IMG/VR virus record: IMGVR_UViG_3300008448_000066
Span: 1 to 64,000 of that record
Reading direction: 5' to 3' (one strand)
DNA length: 64,000 nucleotides
Origin: a virus
Both the position numbers and the translations under genes were made by a program. Below are positions 28,638 to 50,436 of the stretch, one piece after another (the stretch's first letter is position 1; each line of letters starts with the position of its first letter). Below the pieces are notes generated by a model. The model did no database searches. It saw nothing but the letters and a program-made list of their open reading frames with translations, and was not told the DNA's origin.

Positions 28638-29852
28638 ATGAAACTAAAGATTTTATTAAAAGAAACTGGCGTTTATAGACCAAGCGTTCCACAAAACTTA
28701 AAAGAATCAGATCTACAAAAAGTTCAAGATTATTACAAGTTAAAAGTAATAGCCCCAATAAGCGTTGAGCTAACTGCTTTTTCTGATGTTTATTTAGTTG
28801 AACCAGCAGATGTTTCAAACTACCCACAAAAAGAGTTGGTATTAAAACTTTCTACAGATTCAAATGAATACAGAGCATATAGTGGTATTAAAAATATAAA
28901 ATCTAAAATGGTTGCTTCTGGTAACCCAGAACACGTAAAAGCCTCTTTGTATTTGCCAAATATCTATACAGCAGAAACATTATCAGCAGAAATTGCTAAT
29001 GTTTATGAATCTATTATAATAATGGAAAAACTTCTTCCATTTACTGGTATATTAAAGCAAAAGCAGTTAACAACAACTCTAACAGGCAACCCAGCAAGAT
29101 CTACTAAAACTTTGTTATATATGCTTGGTGATGAAGCGTTTATCGATAGAACAATGAAATATTTGTTTAAAGTTATGGAACAAAGTCCAGACATAGAACT
29201 TGGCTATAGAACTTTAAGCCCAAGTGCTTTCTTGATCAATAAGATTGTTGGCGACATTGTTAGTGGAAAACAGATAGCTATTGACACCAAGAATCAAAAC
29301 ATCAATATAGCAACAAACAGTCTTAGAAGTATGATAAGAAAGAAAGTAGCACCCGGTCTTATGGCAAAAGTAGACAATCCTGCTCCTGCTTCTTACTATA
29401 TGGATAAAGAAAAAAGAACTCCAGAACAGCAAAAAGAAGTAGAAAAATATCTTGCATCATCTGACAAAAATGACAGAATATTCCTTGAAGAAATGAAACA
29501 AGTTCAAAAAGAAATGTATAGAATAGGTGATATATTTATTTACTATGCTGATAGATATGGCGATTTAAATAACGTAGAGTTGATGTTTGATACCTTTTTA
29601 GATATACTAAAAAAGTCAACACCAGTTGCTCCTGTATCTGCTGTAAATCCATACCCACAAAATCCAGAAACAAGACCAGAAGAAGTCGTTCCCGGTGCAG
29701 AATCTTTTGCTAAAGCATTACAAGTATTAGAAGATTATGGTATGAAAAGATCAGATTTGCACGGCAAAAACTATATGATGCGTGAAAATGGTCAAATAGT
29801 CATATCAGATCCCGGTTTGTTTGAGTTTGTAAATACAAGAAAAGGAATATAA
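28638..29852 (+). CDS. Protein-kinase-like protein with a possible cleavable N-terminal leader
   Basis: 404 residues. Kinase-fold landmarks in order: 'AFSDVYLVEP' (glycine-loop position, glycines lost), 'KELVLKLS' (VAIK-type lysine), 'SNEYRAYSGI' (alpha-C glutamate), 'YESIIIMEKLLPF' (hinge), and near the C-terminus 'YGMKRSDLHGKNYMM' (catalytic loop D-L-H-G-K-N) followed by 'GQIVISDPGLFEF' (DFG-like DPG). The order and spacing match a protein-kinase or aminoglycoside-phosphotransferase-like fold with a long insertion in the C-lobe. The N-terminus 'MKLKILLKETGVYRPS' is a short basic helix with an L-K-E site like those of T4 capsid-targeted proteins. It sits between primase and a small IIKEE protein. 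Activity and substrate are unknown. Confidence 0.6.
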   Translation: MKLKILLKETGVYRPSVPQNLKESDLQKVQDYYKLKVIAPISVELTAFSDVYLVEPADVSNYPQKELVLKLSTDSNEYRAYSGIKNIKSKMVASGNPEHVKASLYLPNIYTAETLSAEIANVYESIIIMEKLLPFTGILKQKQLTTTLTGNPARSTKTLLYMLGDEAFIDRTMKYLFKVMEQSPDIELGYRTLSPSAFLINKIVGDIVSGKQIAIDTKNQNINIATNSLRSMIRKKVAPGLMAKVDNPAPASYYMDKEKRTPEQQKEVEKYLASSDKNDRIFLEEMKQVQKEMYRIGDIFIYYADRYGDLNNVELMFDTFLDILKKSTPVAPVSAVNPYPQNPETRPEEVVPGAESFAKALQVLEDYGMKRSDLHGKNYMMRENGQIVISDPGLFEFVNTRKGI

Positions 29853-29853
29853 A

Positions 29854-30093
29854 ATGGAAATAACCAAATCAAGATTAAAGCAAATAATCAAAGAAGAAAT
29901 GGAAAGACTTTCTGATGATTATGAATCAATAGAAATGGGTCAAGTTTCTGATCTTGAAAGAGCTATGGAAATAGCTGGTGAGTTAGAACAATACATTCGT
30001 GTAATGGGAGAAGCAATGCCAATGGAACTTGTTTCTGAGTTACAAAGTATTTTAGCTAATCTCATTGAGTCAGAAGGATCAGAAATCGGTTGA
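29854..30093 (+). CDS. Small acidic protein with IIKEE-type N-terminal helix
   Basis: 79 residues starting MEITKSRLKQIIKEEMERL. The first 19 residues are nearly the same as those of the 94-residue protein at 35008 (MQITKSRLKEIIKEEIEAM) and the 78-residue protein at 41843 (RLKQIIKEELAALMDEM). The rest is acidic and helical. The I-K-E within the helix fits the (L/I)-x-E cleavage consensus of T4-type prohead proteases. AAGGA precedes the ATG and it starts two bases after the kinase-like gene, so they are likely co-expressed. A packaged internal head protein is the favoured but unproven idea. Its TGA overlaps the -35 box of the downstream promoter. Confidence 0.6.
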   Translation: MEITKSRLKQIIKEEMERLSDDYESIEMGQVSDLERAMEIAGELEQYIRVMGEAMPMELVSELQSILANLIESEGSEIG

Positions 30094-30118
30094 CAAACCT
30101 ACCCCATCGTAGTATATT
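30090..30118 (+). promoter_or_regulatory. Sigma70-type promoter for the SbcD-SbcC fusion gene
   Basis: A perfect TTGACA (30090-30095), a 17-base spacer and TATATT (30113-30118; alternatively TATTAT at 30115-30120) precede the ATG at 30140, with AGGGG as ribosome site between. It is the only site in the window where I saw a consensus host-type promoter in an intergenic gap, and its position before a recombination gene fits early or middle expression. Confidence 0.7.
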
Positions 30119-30139
30119 ATAAATGCTACAGGGGTAATA

Positions 30140-33100
30140 ATGGTAAAGATTGCTCACGTTTCTGATATCCACATTAGAAACTTTAAATATCACGATGTAT
30201 ACGAGAATGTATTTAATCAACTCTATGATAAGCTTCGTGAACTAAAGCCAGACATTATCGTAAATACTGGAGATACTGCACACACAAAGTTGCAGCTATC
30301 TCCAGCTTATTTTGATATGACTGCAAGATTCTTTACAAATCTGGCTGATATCGCACCTCTACACATCATTATTGGCAATCACGATCTTAATCTTAAGAAT
30401 CTTGCTAATATCGATGCAATCACACCAATCGTAGAAGCTCTAAATAATAAGAACATTTTCTTCCATAAGAACTCAACTGTTTTTAATGTTGAAGATATTA
30501 ACTTTCACGTTCTATCTATGGTAGATCCAGATGCGTGGAATACAGATGTAGATCCTAATAAGACCAATATTGCCCTTTATCACGGCTCTGTTGCTGGTGT
30601 AAAGACGGATATGGGCTGGACTATGGATCACGGTGAGATTGAGTATGAAGTCCTAGAGAAGTTTGATTACGCTCTTCTTGGTGATATTCACAAGACCAAT
30701 CAAGCACTAGACTACGAAGGCCGTTGCCGCTACGCTGGTTCTCTTGTCCAACAGAATCACGGAGAGACAAATGATAAGGGTTTCCTATTTTGGGAGATTG
30801 AGGACAAAGAAACATTTAGTGTTAAGCACGTTCGTCTAACAAACCCAAAGCCATTTATTTCTGTAACTCTTACAGATGATGGTAAGATTCCAGATAATAC
30901 AGATATTCCAAGTGGATGCCGTCTGCGTCTTATCTCTACTACAAATCATCCAGCAGAGATTATCAAGAAAGCAGCAGATGTAGCCAAAACAATCTACAAG
31001 CCAGAAAGTATTTCATTCCTCAATAAGAGCATCAATGCTTCTGTTGGAAATAATGACAAACTCCTAATCAAAGAGAATCTGCGAGATATAAAGGTACAAG
31101 AAACTCTTATCAACGAATACTTGAAGGATTACAGCGTATCTGATAGTGTTCTACAAGAAGTCTTTACGCTTAATCGCAAGTACAACACAGTTGTATCTGA
31201 GACAGAAGATATTGCACGAAATATTAACTGGAAACTAAAGCATCTTGAATGGGATAATCTATTCAACTACGGAGAAGGCAACAAGATTGATTTTAATGGC
31301 CTTTCTGGTGTTGTTGGTATCTTTGGTAAGAACTATAGCGGCAAGTCAAGTATTGTAGATGCAGCACTTTACACAATCTTCAATACAACCTCAAAGAACG
31401 AGAGAAAGACAACAAATGTAATCAATCAAGCCAAGCAAAGTGGTAGAGGACAAGTTGTTCTTGAGATTGATGGTTTTGATTATACAATCACTCGTAATGC
31501 AGAAAAGTATATGAAGAAGCTAAAGGGTGAGGTAACAGAAGAAGCAAAGACAACACTTGATCTATCTTGCTTTGATACTATCTCTTGTCAACAGGAGCGT
31601 TCACTAAACGAACTATCCCGTACAGATACTGATAAGTATATTCGTAAACTGTTTGGTACGATTGACGATTTTATGTTGACCTCTCTGTCATCACAGCTTG
31701 ACGCAACTGCATTTATCCGTGAGGGTTCAACACGACGCAAAGAAATCCTAGCAAAGTTTCTTGATCTAGAAATCTTTGATGAAAAGTTCAAGCTAGCCAA
31801 GAATGATAGTGCAGAACTAAAAGGAATGCTTAAGCGATTTGAGGGTGTTGACTATGGTAACGATATTCAACAGCTTGAAGAAAAGCTGAATGATAGTAAT
31901 ATCAAGTTAGCACAAGTTGAGGAAACTAAAAAGATTGTCCTTGAACAAAAAGATTATTATAAGACACTTCTAAACGAAGTACTTAACACTCTAAAGTCCC
32001 ACGGAACTTCTTCTATCGATATTCAGAACATTAATGATCAATACAATATTTTACTCAGCAGATATACGGACAAGCTTACTGAGCAAACCAGTATTGATAC
32101 TGAAACAATCGAGAAAGAAACAACAATCAAAAAAATTGATGCATTTATCAGCGATTTTGATGTTGATGATTTAAAGAAGAAGAAAGATCTTATTGCTGAA
32201 AAGCAAAAGAAACTTGTCAGACTTGCAAATGATCTACAGATAAACAAGCGAGATCTAAATGCACTACAAGAGAAAATTAAACTTCTAGGCGAAGTTCCTT
32301 GTGGTACTCAGTTTGCTTCTTGTAAATTTATCAAAGATGCAATCACAGCAAATGAAAAAGTTCCAAATCAACGTGAAAAGGTTGACTCACTTTCAACTGA
32401 GCACAGCAATCTTACAGCAGAGATTGAAGCATTTGATGCAGACAATGTAACAGATCAACTTTCAAAGTATGACAAGATTGTAGCCAAGAAAGCAACACTT
32501 GAAAATGAAGTTCTCAAACTAAATCTTAAGTCAGAGACAATCAAGGGTGAACTTGAAAAGATCAAGAACACGGTTGCCAATCTTGAATCTCAGATTGAAG
32601 AGCACAAAAAGAACGAAGAGTTGTTCAATAAGATTAGCGAACACCAAGCTACCCGTGATCAATATATTGCTCGCATTGAAGGACTTGATAAGAAAGTGGC
32701 AGAGCTTGATTCAGAAATTAAGTCTCACTACCAGACTATTGGTTCTTGCGAAGCTCGTATTGAGCAAGCAAGGAATCAGCAAGAAGAACTGAATAAGCTA
32801 CGGGATCAATTTGCTGCTTACGATTACTATATGCGCTGTATGCATCCAAATGGTATCTCTTATGATATCATCAAGAAGAAGCTACCAATCATCAATGACG
32901 AGATTGCCAAGAATCTTGCAAACATTGTAGACTTTGAAATCTTCTTTGAGGATGATGGAAACAAGTTGAATATCTTAATTAAGCATCCAAGATTCGATCC
33001 ACGACCAATCGAAATGGGTTCTGGTGCAGAAAAGTCAATAGCTTCTATGGCTATCCGTCTTGCTCTTCTTCAAGTATCTAACCTTCCAAAGAGCAACATC

Positions 33101-33289
33101 TTTATCCTTGACGAGCCAGCAACCGCTCTTGATGCAGAGAATATGGAAGGATTTATCCGTATGATTGATATGATTAAGTCAAACTATGACATTGTTCTGC
33201 TTATCTCGCATCTTGATGCACTCAAGGATATCGTAGATACAACTATCACCATTGATAAGGAAAATGGTTACTCTTATGTAAATGTTTGA
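30140..33289 (+). CDS. sbcD-sbcC: Fused SbcD-SbcC (Mre11-Rad50; T4 gp47-gp46) recombination nuclease/ATPase
   Basis: 1,049 residues. Residues 1 to about 340 are an Mre11/SbcD metallophosphoesterase: D9-x-H11, 'NTGDTAH' (D45), 'GNHD' (79-82), 'ALYHGS' and 'ALLGDIHK'. From about 365 a Rad50/SbcC ATPase begins: Walker A 'GKNYSGKSS' (396-404), a Q-loop-like 'SCQQERS', long coiled coils, a hook apex with C721 and C728, then signature-like 'GSGAEKSIASMA', Walker B 'IFILDEPATALD' and a switch His in 'LISHLD'. In T4 and bacteria these are two proteins that resect DNA ends; here both are in one frame with no stop between. The hook is C-x6-C rather than C-x2-C. It has its own promoter. Confidence 0.9.
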   Translation: MVKIAHVSDIHIRNFKYHDVYENVFNQLYDKLRELKPDIIVNTGDTAHTKLQLSPAYFDMTARFFTNLADIAPLHIIIGNHDLNLKNLANIDAITPIVEALNNKNIFFHKNSTVFNVEDINFHVLSMVDPDAWNTDVDPNKTNIALYHGSVAGVKTDMGWTMDHGEIEYEVLEKFDYALLGDIHKTNQALDYEGRCRYAGSLVQQNHGETNDKGFLFWEIEDKETFSVKHVRLTNPKPFISVTLTDDGKIPDNTDIPSGCRLRLISTTNHPAEIIKKAADVAKTIYKPESISFLNKSINASVGNNDKLLIKENLRDIKVQETLINEYLKDYSVSDSVLQEVFTLNRKYNTVVSETEDIARNINWKLKHLEWDNLFNYGEGNKIDFNGLSGVVGIFGKNYSGKSSIVDAALYTIFNTTSKNERKTTNVINQAKQSGRGQVVLEIDGFDYTITRNAEKYMKKLKGEVTEEAKTTLDLSCFDTISCQQERSLNELSRTDTDKYIRKLFGTIDDFMLTSLSSQLDATAFIREGSTRRKEILAKFLDLEIFDEKFKLAKNDSAELKGMLKRFEGVDYGNDIQQLEEKLNDSNIKLAQVEETKKIVLEQKDYYKTLLNEVLNTLKSHGTSSIDIQNINDQYNILLSRYTDKLTEQTSIDTETIEKETTIKKIDAFISDFDVDDLKKKKDLIAEKQKKLVRLANDLQINKRDLNALQEKIKLLGEVPCGTQFASCKFIKDAITANEKVPNQREKVDSLSTEHSNLTAEIEAFDADNVTDQLSKYDKIVAKKATLENEVLKLNLKSETIKGELEKIKNTVANLESQIEEHKKNEELFNKISEHQATRDQYIARIEGLDKKVAELDSEIKSHYQTIGSCEARIEQARNQQEELNKLRDQFAAYDYYMRCMHPNGISYDIIKKKLPIINDEIAKNLANIVDFEIFFEDDGNKLNILIKHPRFDPRPIEMGSGAEKSIASMAIRLALLQVSNLPKSNIFILDEPATALDAENMEGFIRMIDMIKSNYDIVLLISHLDALKDIVDTTITIDKENGYSYVNV

Positions 33290-33296
33290 TTAACCA

Positions 33297-33304
33297 CTAT
33301 TTAC
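33297..33304 (+). promoter_or_regulatory. CTATTTA(C) candidate late promoter element
   Basis: CTATTTAC ends three bases before the ATG at 33308. The gene has no Shine-Dalgarno, so if this is a -10 element the message would be leaderless or the true start lies further downstream. Confidence 0.35.
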
Positions 33305-33307
33305 TTT

Positions 33308-33670
33308 ATGCTATTCTTTATAAAAGCCAACTGGAAACTCATAGCAGCAGGAGTTTACGCGCTTATCATTCCGCTGTACTTCAATCAATCTTCTAAGTCT
33401 GCCTTTAAGGCTATGGAAGCTTCACAAGAAAGTTCAAAGAAGCAAATCCATATTTTAAAAAATGAAATGGAAGAGCAAAGAAGAGTTTATAATCAAATGT
33501 TTGATGATTATAAAAAGAAACTTGATGAAGCACAAGCAAAATACGATGAAGAGTTGGAATCAATAAAAAAGAATCAAAAGAAACAACAAAAGAAAATGGC
33601 AGAAACATTTAAAAATGATGAAACTGCTATTGACGAAGAACTACAAAAAAGATATGGATTGACACGATGA
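33308..33670 (+). CDS. Single-pass membrane protein with long coiled coil, inner-membrane spanin-like
   Basis: 120 residues: one N-terminal membrane segment (about residues 8-26, 'WKLIAAGVYALIIPLYF') followed by about 80 residues of highly charged coiled coil (Lys, Glu, Gln). This is the layout of inner-membrane spanins (Rz type) and also of some phage envelope proteins. It overlaps the next gene by ATGA, as spanin pairs often do. No sequence signature defines spanins, so the function is inferred from topology and pairing. The start has no ribosome site; the CTATTTAC element lies directly upstream. Confidence 0.5.
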   Translation: MLFFIKANWKLIAAGVYALIIPLYFNQSSKSAFKAMEASQESSKKQIHILKNEMEEQRRVYNQMFDDYKKKLDEAQAKYDEELESIKKNQKKQQKKMAETFKNDETAIDEELQKRYGLTR

Positions 33671-34074
33671 TATTAACATTACTATTATTTACTAATATTG
33701 CAAATGCACAAGATTATGCTCCAATCAAAAAAGGACAAGTTTCTCCTATTGATGGAACTGTATTAAGTCAAAATGCTTTAGCCAACATAATAACTACAAA
33801 TGACGCTATTGTTTTAGAGTGTCAAGCAAAAGCAAAACACGATCTAGAAAAACAAACAATTGAATGTGAATTAGATGTTCAAAAATTAGAGTACGATCTT
33901 GAGGCGATTAAAAGAACAAACGCCTCAATTATTGAGGCGAAAGACGAAGAGATAAATAAACTTCAAACTATAATCAAAAAGAATAATAGAAATCTTGCTC
34001 CTCTTTGGGTTGCTATTGGTTTTGCTGGCGGTATTGCTACTACCTACGGAACTTTTTACTTATTGAGTGAATAA
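33667..34074 (+). CDS. Exported coiled-coil protein with signal peptide and C-terminal membrane segment
   Basis: 135 residues. Residues 1-15 form a short signal peptide ending at an ANA-Q cleavage site. Then comes 'APIKKGQVSPIDGTVLS', a motif I recall from lysis-region and envelope proteins of other tailed phages, an alpha-helical coil (about 50-105) and a C-terminal hydrophobic segment ('PLWVAIGFAGGIATTYGTFYLL'). There is no lipobox cysteine, so it is not a classical outer-membrane spanin lipoprotein. Pairing with the preceding TM/coiled-coil protein suggests a two-component envelope or lysis device; this is inference. The coding region contains a perfect 9-bp palindrome at 33921-33939. Confidence 0.5.
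   Translation: MILTLLLFTNIANAQDYAPIKKGQVSPIDGTVLSQNALANIITTNDAIVLECQAKAKHDLEKQTIECELDVQKLEYDLEAIKRTNASIIEAKDEEINKLQTIIKKNNRNLAPLWVAIGFAGGIATTYGTFYLLSE
33921..33939. repeat. Perfect inverted repeat CGCCTCAAT-T-ATTGAGGCG inside a coding region
   Basis: Two 9-base arms around one central base; a third copy of TGAGGCG lies just upstream at about 33900. It is within the reading frame of the exported coiled-coil protein and has no T-tract, so it is not a standard terminator. Confidence 0.6.
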
Positions 34075-34625
34075 TGAGTAGACACGGTAATTTACCGCAT
34101 CATTTATATGTTTACGTTGATAATAAACAATTAGGACTACCATCTGGATATACAGAAGGTATATGGCACGGAGTATATGCAAGAGAAGGACAAATACTTT
34201 TAAGCCATATATTGTTAGAAACTGGCGCACATTGGACAGGCGTTCCATTGCACGCCATACACCACAAGAGTAGCCCAGAAGCAAGAAAGCCGGGTCAAAT
34301 ACAGCCTTGGGGTAATATGGGAACAGATATAGATGTTACTTATTTGAAACATCTTGATGGTATTGAAGTGGAATACTTTAAAGAAAGTATAAAAGGTATT
34401 GGTACGGGAATGGTAATAGATTGGTACGATGGATTCACTAGATATCCAGAACAACACAAACCATTACACATTATTGCAATGGAAGATGGAAACTATTACT
34501 TATTACCAAACAATTATTTGCGTTGGTTTGATCCATCTTTTACTGTAGATAGTAAATGGCAAGAATGTAAAAATTATAAGAGAGGAAATCAAGTTTGGTT
34601 TCCAGAAAATAAAAATAATAAATAA
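34074..34625 (+). CDS. Unknown 183-residue protein, His/Trp-rich
   Basis: Starts on the last base of the previous stop (TAATG). The N-terminal half is unusually rich in His, Trp, Gly and Tyr ('GYTEGIWHGVYAREGQILLS', 'ETGAHWTGVPLHAIHHKS'), the middle is acidic, and the C-terminus has 'GNYYLLPNNYLRWFDPSF'. I do not recognise a family. The clustered histidines could bind metal and the context with two envelope-type genes would allow a lysis enzyme, but no peptidoglycan hydrolase motif (such as HxH or E-8-D/C-5-T lysozyme pattern) can be supported. No signal peptide or membrane segment. Confidence 0.6.
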   Translation: MSRHGNLPHHLYVYVDNKQLGLPSGYTEGIWHGVYAREGQILLSHILLETGAHWTGVPLHAIHHKSSPEARKPGQIQPWGNMGTDIDVTYLKHLDGIEVEYFKESIKGIGTGMVIDWYDGFTRYPEQHKPLHIIAMEDGNYYLLPNNYLRWFDPSFTVDSKWQECKNYKRGNQVWFPENKNNK

Positions 34626-34634
34626 TGTGATATT

Positions 34635-35033
34635 ATGAAAGATCCAAATCAAGTAGTTAAAATAGAAAAAGCCATAGCAGATAAGTATGGCACAGAAACA
34701 ATATTGAATCCAAAGTCACTTTGGAATGAAGATAAAGAAAAAGAATATCAAGAACAAATAAAAGAACTTCAGCAAAAACAACTTTTTATTGAAGAGAATA
34801 GTCATAAAGTAGAAATTGACGGTGTTTTTATTTCTAAAAAACTACTTAATAAAGACAGCAAAAGAACCTGTCCCGTTTGTTCAATTTATTCTTTTTCTTT
34901 AGAAGACGATATTTATATGAACAAATTTGAATGTTGCAAAATTTGCTATGTTAAATATATAGAAGATAGAGAAGAACGTTGGAAGTCTGGTTGGAGGCCA
35001 AGTAAAGATGCAAATAACAAAGTCAAGACTTAA
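34635..35033 (+). CDS. Zinc-ribbon protein upstream of terminase
   Basis: 132 residues. Residues 30-55 are a Gln/Glu/Lys helix; the C-terminal part has two CxxC pairs, C79-P-V-C82 and C101-K-I-C104 (C100 also present), with aromatic residues between ('IYSFSLEDDIYMNKF'), a zinc-ribbon pattern, then 'YIEDREERWKSGWRP'. It probably binds nucleic acid or a protein partner. It ends 26 bases inside the next gene, so the two are coupled. Its position before terminase, where small terminase subunits or regulators often lie, is suggestive only. Confidence 0.6.
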   Translation: MKDPNQVVKIEKAIADKYGTETILNPKSLWNEDKEKEYQEQIKELQQKQLFIEENSHKVEIDGVFISKKLLNKDSKRTCPVCSIYSFSLEDDIYMNKFECCKICYVKYIEDREERWKSGWRPSKDANNKVKT

Positions 35034-35292
35034 AGAAATAATCAAAGAAGAAATTGAAGCTATGGGTTATGATGACTCAGTATCTGGTCAAGATCAAGAA
35101 CTTGATTATGAAGGTTATATGACAAAATCACAGCTTTACAAAATTGGTCAATATGCTTTGGAACTCCACGATATGATAAACGACGGCGACAATCTTCCAG
35201 AATGGATGCAAGCAAAAGTATCACAAATGGAAAAAGACATTGGTTCTGTTAAACACGCTTTACAATATGATAAAGAAAGAGGTACATTATAA
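35008..35292 (+). CDS. Small acidic protein with IIKEE-type N-terminal helix
   Basis: 94 residues starting MQITKSRLKEIIKEEIEAM, almost the same leader as the 79-residue protein at 29854. GGAGG at 34994-34998, inside the preceding gene, selects this ATG. After an acidic spacer (DYEGY) comes 'MTKSQLYKIGQYALELHDMI' and 'LPEWMQAKVSQMEKDIGSVK', a helical hairpin I have seen in small proteins of many aquatic myoviruses. The leader contains I-K-E, a possible prohead-protease site. It sits between the zinc-ribbon gene and the terminase block. A packaged internal protein is the working idea. Confidence 0.62.
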   Translation: MQITKSRLKEIIKEEIEAMGYDDSVSGQDQELDYEGYMTKSQLYKIGQYALELHDMINDGDNLPEWMQAKVSQMEKDIGSVKHALQYDKERGTL

Positions 35293-35852: not shown

Positions 35853-35858
35853 TATGTT

Positions 35859-37439
35859 ATGGCATATAAACTTACCAAGGAACAGGTTCAAAAAGAAATA
35901 ATCAAATGTGGTAAAGATCCTGTTTACTTTATCAATACATACGCCAGAATATCCCATCCACAAAAAGGCCCAATACCATTCAAGACATATGAATTCCAAG
36001 ATGAATCATTAAAAGCTTTTATTGACTTCAGATTCAATGTTGTTCTTAAAGCTCGTCAGCTTGGTTTATCAACAGTAGTTGCTGCTTATATTGCTTGGCT
36101 AATGTTGTTTCACAGAGATAAGAACGTATTGGTATTGGCTACCAAACTATTGTCAGCAGCTAACTTAGTAAAAAAAGTAAAATATATTATCAAGAGTTTG
36201 CCTCCTTGGCTTATGATAGCCGATATTGCAATCGACAATAGAAACTCTTTTGAACTATCAAATGGTTCACAGATTAAAGCTTCTGCTACTTCCGGTGATG
36301 CTGGTCGTTCAGAAGCCCTTTCTTTGCTTGTTCTAGACGAGGCTGCATTCATCGAAGGTATGCAAGAACTATGGACAGGCTTATATCCTACAATGGCAAC
36401 TGGTGGTCGTTGTATAGCTATTTCAACTCCTAACGGCGTTGGTAACTGGTTCCATCAAACTTATATTGATGCAGAATCTGGCAACAATGAGTTTAACCCA
36501 ATCAAACTGCATTGGTCAAGACACCCAGATAGAGATCAAGCTTGGTTTGATAAAGAAACTAAGAACTTGTCTCGTCGTGAGATTGCTCAAGAATACGAAT
36601 GTTCTTTCAATGCATCTGGTGAGACTGTAATAGCCCCAGAAGATATTGAGTATTATTTAACTGTTGCTGGTGAACCTAAGTATCGTTCTGGTGTTGATAG
36701 AAACTATTGGATTTGGAAAGAGTACGATCCAAAGAATGGTCACGTTTTAGTTGCAGACGTAGCAAGAGGCGACGGCTCAGACTATTCTGTATTTCATCTT
36801 TTAAATGTTGATACGATGGAAGTTGTAGCAGAATATCAAGGCAAAATGCCAACTGATGAATATGCAAGGTTTCTTATTAGTGTTGGAAAGGAATACGGGA
36901 ATTGTATGATTGTTATTGAGAACAATAACATTGGTTATGCAGTATTGAAAGAAATGATAGCACTTGGATATCCAAACATATTCCACTCTGTAAAAGGTAA
37001 TAACGAATATATTGATCAAGCTCTTGCAGAAACAATGTCAAATTCAGTTCCCGGCTTTACAACATCATACAAATCAAGACCTTTAATTATTTCAAAATTA
37101 GAAGAATTTTTAAGAAATAAAGCAATCAAACTTCATTCAAAAAGATTGGTTAATGAACTCAATACATTTGTTTGGCATAACGGAAAACCACAGGCAATGC
37201 GTGGTTATCACGATGATTTAATTATGTCACTTGCAATTGCTTGTTGGATCAAAGATACTGTGTTTCAGACTAGTTATAGAGAAACAGAAATAAAGCGCGC
37301 TTTACTTGACGGAATCCAAAAATCGAATACAATACTAAATACAACTATACACGGTATGTCCGGTTATAACAAAAACGATATGATGCGTAAAGAAGCAATA
37401 TCAATGGCTTCACAATATGGTTGGATATTTAAAGGATAA
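35859..37439 (+). CDS. terL: Terminase large subunit, gp17-like
   Basis: 526 residues (T4 gp17 is 610). The ATPase half has a deviant Walker A 'ARQLGLST' (65-72), Walker B 'LLVLDEAAF' with D160-E161, and coupling motif 'CIAISTPNG' (about 185-193). The nuclease half is RNase H-like: 'VLVADVARGDGSDYSVF' (D300, D305 or D308), 'CMIVIENNNIG' (E354) and a C-terminal 'YHDDLIMSLAIA' supplying the last acids. It packages DNA into the prohead through the portal encoded next. The family (T4-like gp17) usually packages by a headful mechanism with no fixed cos ends; that would make the genome circularly permuted. No ribosome site is obvious before this ATG. Confidence 0.95.
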   Translation: MAYKLTKEQVQKEIIKCGKDPVYFINTYARISHPQKGPIPFKTYEFQDESLKAFIDFRFNVVLKARQLGLSTVVAAYIAWLMLFHRDKNVLVLATKLLSAANLVKKVKYIIKSLPPWLMIADIAIDNRNSFELSNGSQIKASATSGDAGRSEALSLLVLDEAAFIEGMQELWTGLYPTMATGGRCIAISTPNGVGNWFHQTYIDAESGNNEFNPIKLHWSRHPDRDQAWFDKETKNLSRREIAQEYECSFNASGETVIAPEDIEYYLTVAGEPKYRSGVDRNYWIWKEYDPKNGHVLVADVARGDGSDYSVFHLLNVDTMEVVAEYQGKMPTDEYARFLISVGKEYGNCMIVIENNNIGYAVLKEMIALGYPNIFHSVKGNNEYIDQALAETMSNSVPGFTTSYKSRPLIISKLEEFLRNKAIKLHSKRLVNELNTFVWHNGKPQAMRGYHDDLIMSLAIACWIKDTVFQTSYRETEIKRALLDGIQKSNTILNTTIHGMSGYNKNDMMRKEAISMASQYGWIFKG

Positions 37440-37444
37440 ACAAA

Positions 37445-39436
37445 ATGGCAGATAATAATAACAGAACTAGAAATACAAAGAATGCCGAGTCACCATTGTT
37501 TAAAAACTTGACTCGTTTGTTTTCTGGTCCAATCGTAAACTATCGTCACGCATATCAAAGTAGATATAAGCGTGGACAACTTGACAAGTTTAACTTTACA
37601 TCTGCTCAAGGTTTAGCGTTTAAGAAATCAACCTATGGACATTATGAGCAATTTTCTTCAAAGATATTAGGTGCTCAAAATCGCGTTCAAAGATACACAG
37701 ACTTTGAACAAATGGAGTATATGCCAGAGATTGCATCTGCTCTTGATATTTATGCAGACGAAATGACAACCTCAAATGAGTTTGCAGAAATGCTAAAGAT
37801 TACTTGTCCAAACGAAGAAATCAAACACGTTCTTCACACACTTTATTTCAAAGTATTAAATCTTGAATCCAATCTATATGGTTGGTGCAGGAATATGTGT
37901 AAGTTTGGAGATTATTTTCTTTATCTTGATATCGATGAACAAATGGGTGTCAAGAATGCAATCGGTCTTCCAACAAATGAAATAGAACGTATTGAAGGCG
38001 AAGATAAAACAAATCCAAACTATGTCCAGTTTCAATGGAACTCTGGCGGTATGGCATTTGAAAACTGGCAGATTGCACACTTCAGAATATTGGGTAACGA
38101 CAAGTATTCACCATATGGAACATCAGTTTTAGATCCTGCTCGTCGTATCTTCCGTCAACTTACACTTTTAGAAGATGCAATGATGGCTTATCGTGTTGTT
38201 CGTTCGCCAGAGCGTAAAGTGTTCTACATTGACGTTGGTGCCATTCCACCAAATGAAGTTGAACAATATATGCAAAAAGTTATGACAACAATGAAGCGCA
38301 ATCAAGTTCTTGATCCAGATACAGGTCGCGTTGATTTGCGTTATAACCCAATGTCGGTCGATGAAGATTACTTTATTCCTGTTCGTGGTGGAGCAGGCTC
38401 TACAAAGATTGAAGCTTTACCCGGTGGTCAATTTACATCTGCTATTGACGATATCAAATATCTTCGTGATAAACTGTTCTCTGCTTTGAAAGTTCCAATG
38501 TCATATCTCTCAAGAGGCGAAGGTGCTTCTGAAGATAAGGCAACGCTTGCACAAAAAGATATTCGATTTGCAAGAACAATCCAAAGACTTCAAAGAGTCA
38601 TAATCTCAGAACTAGAAAAGATTGGCATTGTCCATCTTTATACGCTTGGCTATAGAGGAAATGATTTAATATCATTTAAACTTGCTTTGAGCAATCCATC
38701 TAAGATTGCAGCACTTCAAGAACTTGAGCACTGGAAGAATAAGTTTGATATTGCTTCTGCTGCAACAGAAGGGTTCTTCAGTAAACGCTGGATTGCACAT
38801 AATGTATTTGGTCTTTCTGATGAAGAGTTTGTCAGAATACAACGTGAACAATACTATGATCGTAAGTATGCTAAGGCTCTAGAAGCTATCGGAACTCAAG
38901 AAGAAGGTGCCGGTGGTGGCGGGGGCGGTGGTCCTATTGGCGATTTAACTGGTGGTGGAGAAACCACAGAAGAACCCGGTGCCCTATTAGCATCACCAGA
39001 AAGTCCAGCACCAGAAGGTGCAGGCGGTGCAGAAGGTGGTGCAGAGGCTGCTGGTGGTGGCGAAGAAACACCAGCCGCTGGAGAAGAAGGAGGGGCAACC
39101 TTACTCTCAGCCCCTCCCGGTAAGAGAAATGATAAAGCCTACACTACTCCAAGAGCAAAGGGTAAAATGTATGCTCCAGTAACTATTGATAAGCGTAAGA
39201 TGGGTGCAAGAAATCGCTCAATGCGTTCTAGTGGTGGAGAAAGTTTTGCAGGATTAGACAAATCATTTCCCGGTGCAAGAGAGTTTTCATCACTAGCAAA
39301 CGGCATTTCAGAAAGTATTCAATCTACTTATGATAGAGAAGAAGAGTTATTATTCAATTCAAATCACGAAGTAGATAGATTAATAGAAAGTTTGGAGAAT
39401 AAACAAAATGGACAAACCAAAGTTAAAGCACAATAA
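37445..39436 (+). CDS. gp20: Portal protein, gp20-like, with Gly/Ala/Glu-rich C-terminal extension
   Basis: 663 residues versus 524 in T4. The core shows gp20 features: 'PEIASALDIYADEMTTSNEF', 'FGDYFLYLDID', 'WQIAHFRILGND...YSPYGTSVLDPARRIFRQL', 'EDAMMAYRVVRSPERKVFYID' and 'LSRGEGASEDKATLAQKDIRFARTIQRLQ'. It forms the dodecameric ring at the packaging vertex. From about residue 486 to 558 there is a low-complexity Gly/Ala/Glu/Pro linker, then a basic patch and an acidic helical tail. The reading frame extends 29 bases into the next gene. AAGGA precedes the ATG, six bases after terminase. Confidence 0.94.
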   Translation: MADNNNRTRNTKNAESPLFKNLTRLFSGPIVNYRHAYQSRYKRGQLDKFNFTSAQGLAFKKSTYGHYEQFSSKILGAQNRVQRYTDFEQMEYMPEIASALDIYADEMTTSNEFAEMLKITCPNEEIKHVLHTLYFKVLNLESNLYGWCRNMCKFGDYFLYLDIDEQMGVKNAIGLPTNEIERIEGEDKTNPNYVQFQWNSGGMAFENWQIAHFRILGNDKYSPYGTSVLDPARRIFRQLTLLEDAMMAYRVVRSPERKVFYIDVGAIPPNEVEQYMQKVMTTMKRNQVLDPDTGRVDLRYNPMSVDEDYFIPVRGGAGSTKIEALPGGQFTSAIDDIKYLRDKLFSALKVPMSYLSRGEGASEDKATLAQKDIRFARTIQRLQRVIISELEKIGIVHLYTLGYRGNDLISFKLALSNPSKIAALQELEHWKNKFDIASAATEGFFSKRWIAHNVFGLSDEEFVRIQREQYYDRKYAKALEAIGTQEEGAGGGGGGGPIGDLTGGGETTEEPGALLASPESPAPEGAGGAEGGAEAAGGGEETPAAGEEGGATLLSAPPGKRNDKAYTTPRAKGKMYAPVTIDKRKMGARNRSMRSSGGESFAGLDKSFPGAREFSSLANGISESIQSTYDREEELLFNSNHEVDRLIESLENKQNGQTKVKAQ

Positions 39437-40211
39437 GAAAAGAAATACCGCTTTTCTTTACGAAGCTCTGGTTAAAGAACTAGCAAAAGCAACCGTAGAG
39501 AAAAACGAGATAACAAAAAAACAAATCGTATCTGTATTAAAAGAGTTTTTCTCTGTAGGCAAACCACTTGCTAGAGAACTTGATGTTTATAAAACTTTAT
39601 ACGAAACAAAAGATATCGATAAAGAAACAGCAAAATCTTTGATTAGTGAATCAAAAAGAGTTTACTTTGGTATGAACCAGCCAGATATATTCAACGAGCA
39701 AAGTCGTCTTATATCAAGAGTCAATAAAGATATTGGTAAATCAGTATTCCAACACTTTATGCCAAACTACAAGAATCTTGCTACTATCTCACAAATCTTT
39801 GATCTTGATATTCCAATTAAGACAAGAGTAATACTTGAACAAACTTTGATTGAGTTCCTTACCACACCAGAACCAAAGTCAAAAGATCTTGAACCAATTG
39901 ACAATATCGTTTATAAAACATTCGTTTCTAAGTTCAATGAAAAATATAGCAACTCTTTGCTAGAAGAACAGAAAACACTTTTAACAAGATACATAATGGC
40001 TCAAGACGAACTTGACGTTGATTTTTCAATCTATCTAAACGAAGAGATTGGAAGAATAAAAAATGTAATCACAACTTCACAATCTATAAAATCAAATCAA
40101 AGTTATGACAAGTTAGTTGCTATGGTTGAGGGTTTTAGAAATAGACAAGTTGATGCTAAACTTTTAGAAGATGTTCTTTATCTTCAAGTACTTGTTAAGG
40201 AAGTTGCATAA
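39408..40211 (+). CDS. Unknown protein between portal and protease, possibly prohead core
   Basis: 267 residues, almost entirely helical and highly charged, starting MDKPKLKHNKKRNTAFLYEA within the end of the portal gene; GGAG lies upstream. It contains many (L/I)-x-E tripeptides ('LLEEQ', 'LISES', 'VILEQ'), which prohead proteases cut in T4 core proteins. T4 places core proteins gp67 and gp68 between portal and protease, so a core role is plausible by position, without sequence evidence that I can confirm. It ends on the next start (TAATG). Confidence 0.55.
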   Translation: MDKPKLKHNKKRNTAFLYEALVKELAKATVEKNEITKKQIVSVLKEFFSVGKPLARELDVYKTLYETKDIDKETAKSLISESKRVYFGMNQPDIFNEQSRLISRVNKDIGKSVFQHFMPNYKNLATISQIFDLDIPIKTRVILEQTLIEFLTTPEPKSKDLEPIDNIVYKTFVSKFNEKYSNSLLEEQKTLLTRYIMAQDELDVDFSIYLNEEIGRIKNVITTSQSIKSNQSYDKLVAMVEGFRNRQVDAKLLEDVLYLQVLVKEVA

Positions 40212-40771
40212 TGGATATAAAAATAAAGTTTACAGGCGACGAACAACAACAGCAGCAACAAGAAGAAACACCACAAGCTTCTATAAAACTTAATGTTCGT
40301 AAATCAATCGATGGTAACCTTATAGTTAGAGATCATCCATTGATTGATATTATCGTTATGCCAACAAAAAATAAAATATTAGCATTGTCAAAGAACTCAA
40401 TGGGTGATAGAACATACTATGCCCAAAACAAGTTGTTCGACTTTCTTTACAAGAGAGGCGTTGTAGATCCAGCTTCAATACAAGCAGGCAATATATATGC
40501 AAGTATGGAAGCAACAATACCAAAGCCTGTTGAAGATGTTGACCCAACACAAGTAGCAATATTTAATATCTTTAAGTTTCTAGAAGAAGAGTTGCCAATA
40601 TTTGCATACGAAAAACAGTTTGATCACTTACAAGATGAACAAAACACTAATCCAGATTCTGAACATTCAACAGAGCTTGGAGAAGTTCCACATAAAGACA
40701 GAAAAGGCGTTTTGGGACAAGCAGTACAATCACCACAGTATGCTTACAATTATATGTATTTTGGCGAGTAA
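40211..40771 (+). CDS. Unknown head-region protein with N-terminal glutamine run
   Basis: 186 residues. After MDIKIKFTGD comes a Gln/Glu run (residues 11-19), a beta-rich part ('SIKLNVRKSIDGNLIVRDHP', 'IDIIVMPTKNKILALSKNSM') and helical 'YYAQNKLFDFLYKRGVVDPAS'. The C-terminus is acidic then Tyr-rich ('SPQYAYNYMYFGE'). AAGGA lies upstream within the preceding gene, and the start overlaps its stop. It is expressed with portal and protease, so a capsid-assembly role is the most likely; the family is not recognised. Confidence 0.55.
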   Translation: MDIKIKFTGDEQQQQQQEETPQASIKLNVRKSIDGNLIVRDHPLIDIIVMPTKNKILALSKNSMGDRTYYAQNKLFDFLYKRGVVDPASIQAGNIYASMEATIPKPVEDVDPTQVAIFNIFKFLEEELPIFAYEKQFDHLQDEQNTNPDSEHSTELGEVPHKDRKGVLGQAVQSPQYAYNYMYFGE

Positions 40772-40774
40772 TCT

Positions 40775-41086
40775 ATGTTCTTACTGTTCTTTATTTTAGC
40801 TTGTTTTGGTCTTACGCAAATATTAGTTTATGGTTCTATTTTAGAACCAATAAGACCAAAACAAGGTTTGTTTGGAGAACTATTTAAATGTCCAATGTGT
40901 ATGGGATTTCACGTTGGATATATTATTTCTCTTTTATTATGCGGATCAGAACTATATAATATAAGCTTTAATTTCATTGATATGTTTTTAATGGCTTGTC
41001 TATCATCGGGGACTTCTTATGTTCTTTGTTCGGTCTTTACGGATTTTGGAATTAATATTAAAATCAACAAGTCAGAAAGCGAATAG
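40775..41086 (+). CDS. Small membrane protein with CPMCMGFHVG motif (DUF1360-like)
   Basis: 103 residues, three probable membrane segments (about 1-22, 46-62, 64-88). Between the first two is 'GLFGELFKCPMCMGFHVGYI', the 'C-P-x-C-x-G-F/W-x-x-G' signature of small membrane proteins grouped as DUF1360, present in bacteria and several phages. The CxxC could bind metal or be redox-active. It is odd to find a membrane protein among portal, protease and scaffold genes; it might tether prohead assembly to the membrane, act at entry, or be a morphogenesis bystander. Function unknown. Confidence 0.6.
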   Translation: MFLLFFILACFGLTQILVYGSILEPIRPKQGLFGELFKCPMCMGFHVGYIISLLLCGSELYNISFNFIDMFLMACLSSGTSYVLCSVFTDFGINIKINKSESE

Positions 41087-41091
41087 TTAAT

Positions 41092-41099
41092 CTATTTAT
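41092..41099 (+). promoter_or_regulatory. CTATTTAT candidate late promoter element
   Basis: Exact CTATTTAT in the gap after the small membrane protein, 18 bases before the ATG of a 35-codon reading frame at 41118 and upstream of the prohead protease. GGAG follows at 41108-41111. Confidence 0.55.
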
Positions 41100-41117
41100 T
41101 GATAGTTGGAGTATATT

Positions 41118-41225
41118 ATGATAACCAAACTAACACAAGGTTTTTGGACAAGAAAGTGGGCATTACAGCCAGTAAGACTTTGTTGTAGAGGCAAGAGGTT
41201 CGTGCGGACGCAGGGCCGCTTCTAA
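41118..41225 (+). CDS. Possible 35-residue, very basic small protein
   Basis: ATG with GGAG seven bases upstream and a CTATTTAT element before that. The product starts MITKLTQGFWTRKWALQPVR and continues with CCRGKRF, ending RTQGRF; it has nine Lys/Arg and no acidic residue. The last third of the frame is clearly GC-rich compared with its surroundings. It fills the whole gap before the protease gene (stop 14 bases before that ATG). It could be a small DNA- or capsid-binding peptide, an untranslated leader, or a relic; coding is supported only by the start signals. Confidence 0.4.
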   Translation: MITKLTQGFWTRKWALQPVRLCCRGKRFVRTQGRF

Positions 41226-41239
41226 AGGAATAATAAACA

Positions 41240-41830
41240 ATGAGCAAAGGACTAATCAGAGAATATTTCGAACTATGCCCAAATGGTGTATGTGAGGACA
41301 TTCTTACAGAATCAGATAAACGTTTTATCAAGAACGGTGGTATGATATTATCTGGCGTTATTCAACGTTCAGACGCAAGAAATGGCAATGGAAGAATATA
41401 TCCACACAGTATTCTTGAAAGAGAAATGAAAAGATACAAGTCATTAGTAGAACAAAGAATGGCTCTTGGAGAATTAGATCATCCAGAACATTCAATGATT
41501 GCTCTTGATAAAGTTTCACATCTTGTAACAGAGGTGTGGTGGAATGGAAAAGATGTAATGGGTAAGATTGAAGTATTAAACACTCCAAAAGGTAAGATAC
41601 TTCAAGAGTTAGTAAATGCCAATGTAAAGATTGGTATTTCATCTAGAGGTACAGGTTCAGTAAGAGAAATCAGAGGAGATACAATCGTAGAAGACGATTT
41701 CAATCTAATCTGTTTTGATATTGTATCTGAACCATCAACTCACGGTGCTTTTATGTCAAGACAAAATGAGTCCTTGATAAGAGGCAATCGTATTGATACT
41801 ATTATTCAAGAAATATTAAATAGAAAATAA
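41240..41830 (+). CDS. gp21: Prohead protease, gp21-like (capsid maturation)
   Basis: 196 residues (T4 gp21 is 212). Core motifs: 'SGVIQRSDARNGNGRIYP' at the N-terminus, 'GELDHPEHS' with the catalytic His81, and 'IGISSRGTGSV' with the catalytic Ser (134/135), followed by 'ICFDIVSEPSTHGAFM'. This herpesvirus-assemblin-like serine protease cuts scaffold, capsid and internal proteins after (L/I)-x-E. An 'ILTE-S' site at residue 24 may be an autoprocessing site. AAGGA precedes the ATG. Seven nearby genes encode proteins with candidate cleavage sites at their N-termini. Confidence 0.93.
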   Translation: MSKGLIREYFELCPNGVCEDILTESDKRFIKNGGMILSGVIQRSDARNGNGRIYPHSILEREMKRYKSLVEQRMALGELDHPEHSMIALDKVSHLVTEVWWNGKDVMGKIEVLNTPKGKILQELVNANVKIGISSRGTGSVREIRGDTIVEDDFNLICFDIVSEPSTHGAFMSRQNESLIRGNRIDTIIQEILNRK

Positions 41831-41842
41831 AGGAGTTTTAAT

Positions 41843-42079
41843 ATGTCAGCTACACTAACACAAGAAAGACTAAAGCAAATAATCAAGGAAGAACTTGCTG
41901 CACTTATGGACGAAATGGTAACCGAAGTAGATCCAGAAGTAGCCGCTCTTGAAGCAACAATCGCAGAAGCCAAAAAGAAGCTTGCAGCCGTTAAGGGCAA
42001 GAAGGTGGGCGGCAAAGATCCAAACCAAGTTCCAGCTGGTTTTGGAAAGAAAGGCGTCAAGAAAGCTTCAAAAAAGTAA
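41843..42079 (+). CDS. Small Lys/Ala-rich protein with IIKEE-type N-terminal helix
   Basis: 78 residues, AAGGAG before ATG, twelve bases after the protease gene. 'LTQERLKQIIKEELAALMDEM' matches the leaders at 29854 and 35008. After the leader comes an Ala/Lys helix and a basic tail ('KKGVKKASKK'). It would leave a basic fragment after cleavage at I-K-E, resembling the DNA-binding internal proteins of T4-type heads. A hairpin terminator follows it. Packaged internal protein or core component is proposed on the basis of motif and position. Confidence 0.62.
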   Translation: MSATLTQERLKQIIKEELAALMDEMVTEVDPEVAALEATIAEAKKKLAAVKGKKVGGKDPNQVPAGFGKKGVKKASKK

Positions 42080-42101
42080 TCTAAGCCAACAAAAATGAAA
42101 T

Positions 42102-42130
42102 AGAGGCAGTACAATAAAAGTGCTGCCTCT
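42102..42130 (+). terminator. Rho-independent-like terminator
   Basis: AGAGGCAGTA (42102-42111) pairs with TGCTGCCTCT (42121-42130), nine-base loop, one G-T wobble, followed by ATTTATT rather than a clean T-run. The CTATTTAT element at 42129-42136 begins within its 3' arm. Confidence 0.6.
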
Positions 42131-42136
42131 ATTTAT
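42129..42136 (+). promoter_or_regulatory. CTATTTAT candidate late promoter element
   Basis: Exact CTATTTAT overlapping the end of the terminator stem and lying 20 bases before the ATG at 42157; stop of one transcript and start of the next are fused in about 60 bases. Confidence 0.55.
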
Positions 42137-42156
42137 TATGATAAGGAAAAAGTAAA

Positions 42157-42774
42157 ATGTTGATAACAGAAAAATATGTAAGATCAGTTGTAAGACAAGA
42201 GCTTCTTAAGATATTAAAAGAAGCAGAATTGCCACCAATACCTAAACAACAGTACCTCTCCCCAGAAGAACAATTCTTTGGAAGTACAAAGGCTGCTGGC
42301 CTAGAGAGCGATAAAGTACAACAAGTTCGTGCTCAAGGTGCCAAATATGCTGACACAATGAAAGAGATAGTTCCAATACAAACACAAACAGACATTGCAA
42401 AAGCAATCAAGTATTATCAATCATTACCTCCACAACGAATGATCAATATGGTTATAGCACACGTTTATCATAATTTTAGTTTTTATATGTTTGTACAAAA
42501 AGATAAAAGACTTCTTTCATTATTTAAAGATTTTGTTGACGATGTAATGGAACAAGTATCTGGTGCTCAGATAAAAGAGCAAGCTGTTAAAGAAGAAGAA
42601 TTAACATTTTACAATACAAATGAATATAAGAGATATACTATACCATTACAAATATTACGACCTTCATTAGTTGAATTTGCAAAACTTATTGGTTCTGTTC
42701 CAAATGCTCGCGATATGATAACAAAACAAAAATACTTTTTAGCAATTAAAAATTATGTAGGTTCTTTTAAATAA
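42157..42774 (+). CDS. Unknown protein with (V/L)RQELL...ILKEAEL N-terminal leader
   Basis: 205 residues. The N-terminus MLITEKYVRSVVRQELLKIL, followed by KEAELPPIP, is a diverged form of the IIKEE helix with an L-K-E site. The body is helical with a conserved-looking 'PQRMINMVIAHVYHNFSFYM' segment. AAGG precedes the ATG. It opens a run of three proteins (42157, 42793, 43206) whose N-termini all resemble this helix. Candidate internal or core head protein; no enzymatic motif seen. Confidence 0.58.
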   Translation: MLITEKYVRSVVRQELLKILKEAELPPIPKQQYLSPEEQFFGSTKAAGLESDKVQQVRAQGAKYADTMKEIVPIQTQTDIAKAIKYYQSLPPQRMINMVIAHVYHNFSFYMFVQKDKRLLSLFKDFVDDVMEQVSGAQIKEQAVKEEELTFYNTNEYKRYTIPLQILRPSLVEFAKLIGSVPNARDMITKQKYFLAIKNYVGSFK

Positions 42775-42792
42775 TTAAAACAAGGTAAGATA

Positions 42793-43206
42793 ATGGACCC
42801 AAAACAACTTAAAACTGCTCTTAAACCAATCGTGAAAGAGCTTATATACGAATGTCTCATAACTGAAGGCATTTTATCTTCTGTAGTTTCTGAAGTAACA
42901 AAAGGTGTTGCAGGTAAAGCAATAGTTGAAAATACACAAACACAACTAAAACCAAAAGCAATCCCACAAAGAAGAGTAGAAAACGATACAGAAGCGGTAG
43001 AGAGAAGAAAGAAACTTGAAGAAACACTTGTTGGAAGATTGGGCGTTAACGTGTTTGAAGGAACTACGCCACTTTCAAAAGGCGGTTCTATAGCAGAAGG
43101 TAGAGCACCAGAAGCCGCTAGTCCATTAGCAGGAACAGATCCCGGCGATCCCGGTGTAGACATTTCCGGTCTTCTTAAGATGACAGGCGGCTGGAAACAG
43201 ATCTAA
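42793..43206 (+). CDS. Unknown small head-region protein with LITEG site near N-terminus
   Basis: 137 residues. The N-terminal helix ('LKTALKPIVKELIYECLITE') ends in L-I-T-E-G, fitting (L/I)-x-E cleavage. A middle Lys/Gln/Arg part and a Gly/Pro/Ala-rich end ('GTDPGDPGVDISGLLKMTGG') follow. AAGG lies before ATG; its stop overlaps the next start (TAATG). Not recognised by family. Tight linkage to two other leader-bearing genes and to the protease suggests a head role. Confidence 0.52.
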   Translation: MDPKQLKTALKPIVKELIYECLITEGILSSVVSEVTKGVAGKAIVENTQTQLKPKAIPQRRVENDTEAVERRKKLEETLVGRLGVNVFEGTTPLSKGGSIAEGRAPEAASPLAGTDPGDPGVDISGLLKMTGGWKQI

Positions 43207-43997
43207 TGGTTTACTTAACAGAGCAACAAATCAGACATTTAGTAAGACAAGAGTTGATATCTGTTCTTCAAGACAATCAAATGCTTGAGGAAGGTATAAA
43301 AGATATCTTTAAACAAGTTTTGCAATCTGCTGGTGTTGTTGCTGCTTTGCTTTATCCAAGTGCTCTTGGGGTAGATAAGATAATGGTGCAGCAAGCATCT
43401 GCACAACAGCAACAAAAAATACAAATAGCAGATCAACTTTCTGAAGAAGCACAATCAGATCTAGTATCAATGGGTGCCACGCCAGATTATGCAATGAGAA
43501 TAGTTGCAAGAGCAGTTGATGGTGCTAACAAAGAATATTTTAAACAAGAACAGCCAGCAGAAAGATATGAAGACTTCTTATTAAACTCTTTGAAAAAACT
43601 TAAAGATAAAGAAGTACTATCAGCTATTGCTGGTCTTGATTTTATGAACGAAGCAGAAAGAGTCGGACGTTCACAGCTTGTTAAATCAGCTTATCAACAA
43701 GGACAAAGTGGAACAACAAGTCCAATACTATCTTTACAATTTGCATTCGGTTCTTCACTTTTAAACGATATTCAAGAAGAAAAAATAGATTTCAATGATA
43801 TTTATTCTACGGAAGATGGAAATGCTTTCGTATTCGATCCTATGAAACTTTCTTATTGGGAAGACAAGGTAATCGAAGGAAGTGAGTTACAAAAAGATTT
43901 ATCTGATACATTGGGCAAGGCAGTAGTTCCAAAAGCATTATTTGATTTAGCACAATCAGCAGATATAGAAAATAGAATAAGACAACAAATACAATAG
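43206..43997 (+). CDS. Unknown protein with LVRQELI...MLEEG leader
   Basis: 263 residues. MVYLTEQQIRHLVRQELISV resembles the leader of the protein at 42157, and 'QMLEEG' gives an L-E-E site at about residue 29. A moderately hydrophobic stretch (about 38-53, 'SAGVVAALLYPSALGV') and a Gln-rich patch follow. The rest is helical, with 'DFLLNSLKKLKDKEVLSAIA' and an acidic C-terminus. Candidate internal head protein; the hydrophobic stretch after the proposed cut could matter for membrane passage. The family is not recognised. Confidence 0.55.
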   Translation: MVYLTEQQIRHLVRQELISVLQDNQMLEEGIKDIFKQVLQSAGVVAALLYPSALGVDKIMVQQASAQQQQKIQIADQLSEEAQSDLVSMGATPDYAMRIVARAVDGANKEYFKQEQPAERYEDFLLNSLKKLKDKEVLSAIAGLDFMNEAERVGRSQLVKSAYQQGQSGTTSPILSLQFAFGSSLLNDIQEEKIDFNDIYSTEDGNAFVFDPMKLSYWEDKVIEGSELQKDLSDTLGKAVVPKALFDLAQSADIENRIRQQIQ

Positions 43998-48744: not shown

Positions 48745-48759
48745 TTAGTCTTTTTCTAT

Positions 48760-48767
48760 CTATTTAT
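48760..48767 (+). promoter_or_regulatory. CTATTTAT candidate late promoter element
   Basis: Exact CTATTTAT followed by AAGTA and then the ATG at 48773 with no Shine-Dalgarno. As a -10 element it would give a leaderless message. Confidence 0.45.
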
Positions 48768-48772
48768 AAGTA

Positions 48773-49738: not shown

Positions 49739-49747
49739 GAATTCCCA

Positions 49748-50320: not shown

Positions 50321-50370
50321 TTCGCTGTAAGATAAAATTTTAAAAAATAACAAACTATCAATTGAACTAA

Positions 50371-50378
50371 CTATTTAT
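50371..50378 (+). promoter_or_regulatory. CTATTTAT candidate late promoter element
   Basis: Exact CTATTTAT 58 bases before the ATG at 50437, in a 116-base gap; the longest leader among the 13 sites. Confidence 0.55.
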
Positions 50379-50380
50379 TC

Positions 50381-50414: not shown

Positions 50415-50436
50415 ACAATAAAGGAACTTTTTTAAA

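Follow-up and report, generated by a model that had tools for sequence, protein, structure and literature searches.

Candidate capsid-targeting leaders of two sequence types in uncultured T4-like phages that encode a gp21-type prohead protease

Why should small and otherwise dissimilar proteins of one virus begin with nearly the same helix, and why should genes of this kind gather around the gene for a prohead protease? These questions are raised by a 64,000-base stretch of viral DNA (bases 1-64,000 of the 68,803-base IMG/VR record IMGVR_UViG_3300008448_000066; hereafter the window), in which a first-pass annotation had read such starts as tags that direct cargo into the capsid and are trimmed off there. 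The capsid-targeting sequences (CTS) of phage T4 are reportedly those of IPI, IPII, IPIII and Alt, treated by Mullaney and Black in 1996. A 10-residue T4 CTS brings foreign proteins into heads, and the gp21 protease cuts after L/I-x-E (PMC9026906; PMC9958956). Based on sequence comparison and on analogy with T4, we consider it probable that the leaders found in the window and its relatives are exchangeable capsid-targeting propeptides, CTS-like in function and of two new sequence forms, here called type 1 and type 2.

The N-termini of the window were scored with a leader profile built from other contigs only. Three type 1 leaders were recovered, all on the plus strand like every other leader segment of the window: MEITKSRLKQIIKEE (29854..29898, 38.2 bits) of a 79-residue protein (29854-30093), MQITKSRLKEIIKEE (35008..35052, 37.8 bits) of a 94-residue protein (35008-35292), and MSATLTQERLKQIIKEE (41843..41893, 30.0 bits) of a 78-residue protein with an ATG start (41843-42079). 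By comparison, the highest score among 20,559 internal windows taken from the window's reading frames was 6.9 bits, and shuffled N-termini scored at most 4.8 bits, so that the near-identity of these starts, noticed in the first-pass annotation, stands far above chance. Their consensus is (I/L)T-x3-L(K/R)-x-II(K/R)EE. The 35008 gene is kept upstream of the terminase gene in relatives, its orthologues lying about 6 kb upstream of the protease, and the 41843 gene lies directly downstream of the protease gene; relatives have this gene at the same place, 13 to 26 nt behind the protease.

Diverged versions had been claimed for three further genes, and for two of these the claim holds through their orthologues. 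The leader MLITEKYVRSVVRQELLKILKE, followed by A (42157..42222), of a 205-residue protein (42157-42774) is tied to type 1 by the orthologue L195, which starts with MLITESVIRKIIREELINVLQE followed by A. The leader MVYLTEQQIRHLVRQELISVLQDNQMLEE, followed by G (43206..43292, 8.2 bits), of a 263-residue protein (43206-43997) is tied to it by orthologues (L207) that start with LTEAQVRQVIREELRNYLIQE followed by G. The third, MDPKQLKTALKPIVKELIYECLITE followed by G (42793..42867), opens a 137-residue protein (42793-43206) whose conserved family has an N-terminus of its own, MKKSELKxxLKPLIKECIKE, and retains [LI]xE in some members only; the status of this start as a leader is uncertain. Uncertain as well is a possible short leader, MKLKILLKE followed by T (28638..28664), of a 404-residue protein (28638-29852). 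This start is as first described, and for the label "kinase-like" given to the protein, searches yielded only weak, C-terminal matches (Pfam E 0.013, below the cut-off; PHROG kinase 3.8e-5 over 39 residues). A structure model of the protein was unusable (predicted local distance difference test score 38.5), and a search for its relatives found none. Four of the seven genes follow the protease gene, as had been stated.

The type 1 leader is widespread among uncultured viruses. A strict codon pattern for it matched at least 120 stretches in IMG/VR viral contigs, and the codon-reversed pattern matched none in the same contigs. Within 257 Gb of bacterial genomes the strict pattern matched 14 stretches only, nearly all on contigs of marine metagenome-assembled genomes, and these may be misbinned phages. 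Two such contigs of 101 and 306 kb (L324 and L327, labelled Halobacteriovorax and Methylococcaceae), in which as many as 11 copies of the leader lie within 8 kb, may likewise be phages binned in error. Using tblastn against INPHARED, the window leader gave no match and the consensus leaders matched one uncultured 484-kb phage only; neither tag sequence was found in the full-text literature searched.

The bodies behind the leader are unrelated, as the window had suggested: at less than 40% identity over the compared stretch, the 271 collected leader proteins fell into 215 body clusters. Conservation in a 120-member alignment was confined to the leader, and its invariant residues are encoded by several codons, which indicates that the peptide itself is selected. 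The highest copy numbers per contig were 15, in a contig of 289 kb where copies lie far from the protease, and 14. Enzyme domains start at residues 21-28, right after the tags. A Pfam scan of type 1 bodies revealed no family that recurs beyond a few members. EF-hand-like calcium-binding motifs were seen in leader proteins of several contigs (L235:2551-3051; 3 of 120 scanned members).

The leader is also linked to the protease. In the window the protease gene (41240..41830, plus strand) gave a product that matched the Peptidase S77 profile PF03420 (98.9 bits, E 3.4e-28) and the T4 gp21 structure 5jbl (3.3e-15). GELDH and GISSRG stand where T4 gp21 has GELNH and GVSSRG, and the His of the former and the Ser of the latter align with positions that read Ala in 5jbl. 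The family profile, together with His and Ser at the active-site positions, points to a gp21-type prohead protease. The linkage that the first-pass annotation had proposed to look for was found: an S77 protease is encoded on 33 of 50 leader contigs and on 3 of 38 control contigs (p 1.7e-8, or p 0.013 when contigs shorter than 50 kb are left out). The controls were drawn with a shorter scrambled pattern because the codon-reversed pattern had given no matches. Sixteen of the 17 leader contigs without S77 also lack a gp23-type capsid gene, and the remaining one is cut inside that gene; these contigs are therefore mostly fragments, and one of them (G016) stops just before the head module. We considered them as contradictions of the link and set that reading aside on these grounds; G017, described below, stays anomalous.

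The converse comparison was made with loci picked by the protease alone, the leader not being used. Leaders were present in 54 of 80 such loci; the total was 117 over 1053 kb, and every one lay on the same strand as the protease. Control loci, 668 kb in all, yielded no leader. In 33 of 67 loci a leader gene was found no more than 130 nt from the protease. At the level of whole contigs, a leader was found in 15 of 22 contigs identified by S77 and in 0 of 22 controls (p 1.5e-6); the leader is thus not equally common without the protease, an outcome that would have spoken against the original idea. Weak S77 matches also occur within open frames of 678-887 amino acids (G063:C1:42767-43096 and G082:C1:33489-33881), which are possibly protease fusions.

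A candidate cut site was sought beyond the part of the leader used for searching; the search pattern fixed residues up to 15 only, and later positions were held out. Counts were made in two sets from which similar bodies had been removed, the second being an independent S77 set. An [LI]xE ending at residues 19-27 was present in 89 of 154 proteins (58%) in the large set and in 43 of 72 (60%) in the second, against a background of 7-15% in downstream windows of equal size. Most sites in the large set (68 of 89) have their E at residue 21 or 22. The motifs [LI]xD, [LI]xQ and [LI]xK show no comparable rise at residues 19-27, and the residue after [LI]xE is enriched for A, G or S (p 1.8e-6 and 0.006). 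Cleavage had originally been placed after the I-K-E at residue 14. This position stays the candidate where it is the sole site; across the wider family a better candidate is the second [LI]xE, near residue 22. Non-leader N-termini contain L/I-x-E in 25-33% of cases, compared with 21-28% of internal windows, and because this excess is small, proteins without a tag cannot be called cargo on this basis.

A second tag was found in the slot that the kinase-like gene occupies in the window. The corresponding gene of G016, which follows the primase gene (L331:13337), starts with MKLLFENWRKYLIE followed by A. This type 2 tag reads MKLL[LFM]ENWR[KQE][YF]L[NK]E, or in short form MKLL-x-ENWRxYLxE, and its pattern matched at least 148 unique proteins, with 128 body clusters among the matches listed (about 120 loci, L332-L425, such as L376:4267-4986, L411:5984-6754 and L406:11721-12236). 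No cultured phage was matched. The bodies include P-loop kinases, zeta-toxin-like kinases, Nudix and HAD-like proteins, and the domain matches usually begin at residues 21-25. One type 2 protein with a YHxTS motif looked ADP-ribosyltransferase-like by eye and was dropped, since a fold search gave no match. Twenty of 36 type 2 contigs also carry type 1 leaders; nine of the 36 carry S77, eight of these with type 1 as well. An exchangeable tag predicts that one body should occur behind different tags, and this was observed: a P-loop kinase whose copies share 62-64% identity across some 210 residues carries tag 1 in L110 (4786-5502) and tag 2 in L376 and L411. Nucleotidase-like bodies carry tag 2 in L349 and are untagged in L012:775 and L336:2471.

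Taken together, the sequences show a common tag, its modularity, its association with the protease, an additional L/I-x-E site and a tag swap; docking, cleavage, packaging and injection we infer. The original reading of the locus thus holds for a shared, exchangeable tag, for restriction to S77 phages as far as the contigs allow a test, and for an L/I-x-E site beyond the searched part. What would characterize a T4-type CTS can be read from the sequences in three respects: a short N-terminal segment is common to unrelated bodies, the segment appears to end at L/I-x-E according to the gp21 rule (through the second site in 58-60% of the type 1 proteins counted, the others having IKE-14 only), and the phage is predicted to encode a gp21-type protease.

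Several observations weigh against this assignment. The second [LI]xE is missing from some 40% of type 1 leader proteins, those at 29854, 35008 and 41843 among them, and for these a cut after IKE-14 would be required. The independent S77 set has [LI]xxE raised as much as [LI]xE, and helix periodicity therefore makes part of the signal. LxE was built into the type 2 search pattern, and the type 2 cut site is therefore not independent evidence. One contig of 125 kb (G017) combines a T4-type portal with a single weak leader; no S77 protease was found in it, including beside the portal. The leader-bearing S77 proteins form one clade, with T4 and Kyanoviridae outside, and the protease linkage is therefore partly common descent. 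Cultured S77 phages outside this clade have no such leader by tblastn, and within it the cultured members immuto and Mel-JY01 lack the strict leader, as does the L261-L268 group.

The alternative that survives best is that the tagged proteins are components of the prohead core, used and degraded during assembly like T4 gp67, gp68 and gp22, that the leader is a core-docking helix, and that nothing is delivered. As a general account we regard this as possible and somewhat unlikely. The leader genes of the window flank the protease gene and recur at fixed nearby places in relatives, several of the proteins are small, acidic or lysine-rich, and T4 gp67 and gp68 occupy the same place. Elsewhere, however, P-loop kinase, Nudix and HAD-like domains stand behind the tags, the bodies vary as much as cargo should, and a single contig has up to 15 copies at a distance from the protease. 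A core role may still apply to the four window proteins encoded beside the protease (41843, 42157, 42793 and 43206), even if targeting of cargo is the general function; these could be core parts, as gp67, gp68 and gp22 are in T4, rather than injected effectors. No sequence match to gp67, gp68 or gp22 was found, and the likeness is one of protease-flanking genes and a core location that we infer. The T4 proteins are broken down into peptides during head assembly, whereas here a single removal of the tag is proposed.

An uncleaved helix that docks to another partner, such as a portal, neck or membrane protein, we hold to be improbable. Conservation is much stronger in the helix itself, to residue 15, than at the second site, and the proteins without that site and the raised [LI]xxE are also consistent with such a helix. 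It does not account for a position-locked, residue-specific [LI]xE followed by small residues in the large set, for restriction to S77 phages, or for a capsid maturation site that obeys the same rule. Quite improbable in our view is the suggestion that the link with the protease reflects lineage only, the leader being a quirk of one phage clade. The single clade described above favors it, but lineage alone leaves both the adjacency to the protease and the L/I-x-E site unexplained. Very little can be said for diverged paralogues of one family whose best-kept ancestral part is the leader: leader genes arranged in tandem (as in G019 at 53.7-58.2 kb) and some related bodies (35008 and L389/L061/L251) would fit, but not 215 clusters in 271 copies, recognizably unrelated folds after the tag, or one enzyme behind either tag or none.

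We therefore return to capsid-targeting propeptides, for which the following sequence of events is proposed. During formation of the prohead, the amphipathic helix of the leader would dock the tagged protein to the scaffold core and so enclose bodies otherwise unlike each other. The S77 protease would then cut after L/I-x-E. The cut would mostly fall near residue 22 in type 1 leaders, at residue 14 in type 2 leaders, and after IKE-14 in a protein that has no other site; in each case the short tag would be lost. The freed body would remain inside the head. Bodies with enzyme domains (in relatives P-loop kinases, Nudix proteins and HAD-like phosphatases) would probably be injected with the DNA, as T4 Alt is, and those encoded beside the protease, including 41843-43997, may serve assembly. 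The earlier idea of an addressable delivery system is best supported by the relatives, in which apparently true enzyme domains stand directly behind the tags.

Compared with the T4 CTS, the likeness lies in a short N-terminal tag on unrelated head proteins that ends in L/I-x-E, known here from sequence alone, and in a gp21-type protease and a gp23-type capsid protein cut by the same rule. The sequence MKTYQEFIAE of the T4 CTS differs from type 1, which has about 22 residues and an II(K/R)EE core; type 2 (MKLLxENWRxYLxE) is closer to it in layout, with MK, E at position 6, an aromatic residue and LxE. The leaders would thus fall outside the T4 CTS family by sequence and within it by layout and context. 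They also differ in number and place, with up to 15 copies per contig that often lie beside the protease, whereas the T4 ip genes lie about 30 kb away. Inner-head and ejection proteins of phiKZ and SPN3US (gp175 and gp245 proteases) likewise have N-terminal propeptides cut after x-x-E, and two SPN3US proteins have identical 15-residue starts (PMC5694885). Those propeptides are mostly longer than 100 residues and end in A-x-E or S-x-E, unlike the short L/I-x-E leaders and very many bodies found here.

Injected proteins, such as host take-over enzymes and anti-restriction proteins, are hard to recognize because their bodies are not conserved. If the tags are loading signals, sequence would suffice to predict injected cargo in many phages that are uncultured and for the most part marine, and two short handles, new and testable, would become available for loading proteins into phage heads. 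We see about as much reason to accept as to doubt a broader proposal, that two or more interchangeable tags form a general loading code in a large uncultured T4-like group. A protein that gained a tag would then be packed, trimmed by S77 and delivered, and single phages would inject sets of up to 15 or more proteins (kinases, Nudix hydrolases and HAD-like phosphatases among them) that can be read from metagenomes.

The window contains a T4-like module in which head genes are followed by those for sheath (60132) and tube (62963). On the plus strand, a probable large terminase subunit (35859..37439) is assigned by gene order, and a probable gp20-type portal (37445..39436) by the terminase-portal-protease order and one relative. 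A probable scaffold or core protein (54585..55649), for which a family match was sought and none found, directly precedes the capsid gene, as does T4 g22 and as in immuto and Mel-JY01. The gp23-type major capsid protein (55668..57359, plus strand) has L-R-E followed by S at residue 59, immediately ahead of its mature part. This site is kept as L[RKD]E in most relatives, the clade form being L[RK]E before A or S at residue 59, and its counterpart in T4 gp23 is L-T-E before A. The protease neighborhood and the scaffold and capsid genes are adjacent in immuto, Mel-JY01 and T4 and are separated in the window by a block of tail-fibre or structural-repeat genes (44714-54500). In G017 a frame near the portal gene (L329:9584-11809) starts, by eye, like the end of an intein, VYDLSFDKDNLFF...ECHNT. 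Amid the tail and baseplate genes of the window lies one open frame of 3738 amino acids (5201-16417).

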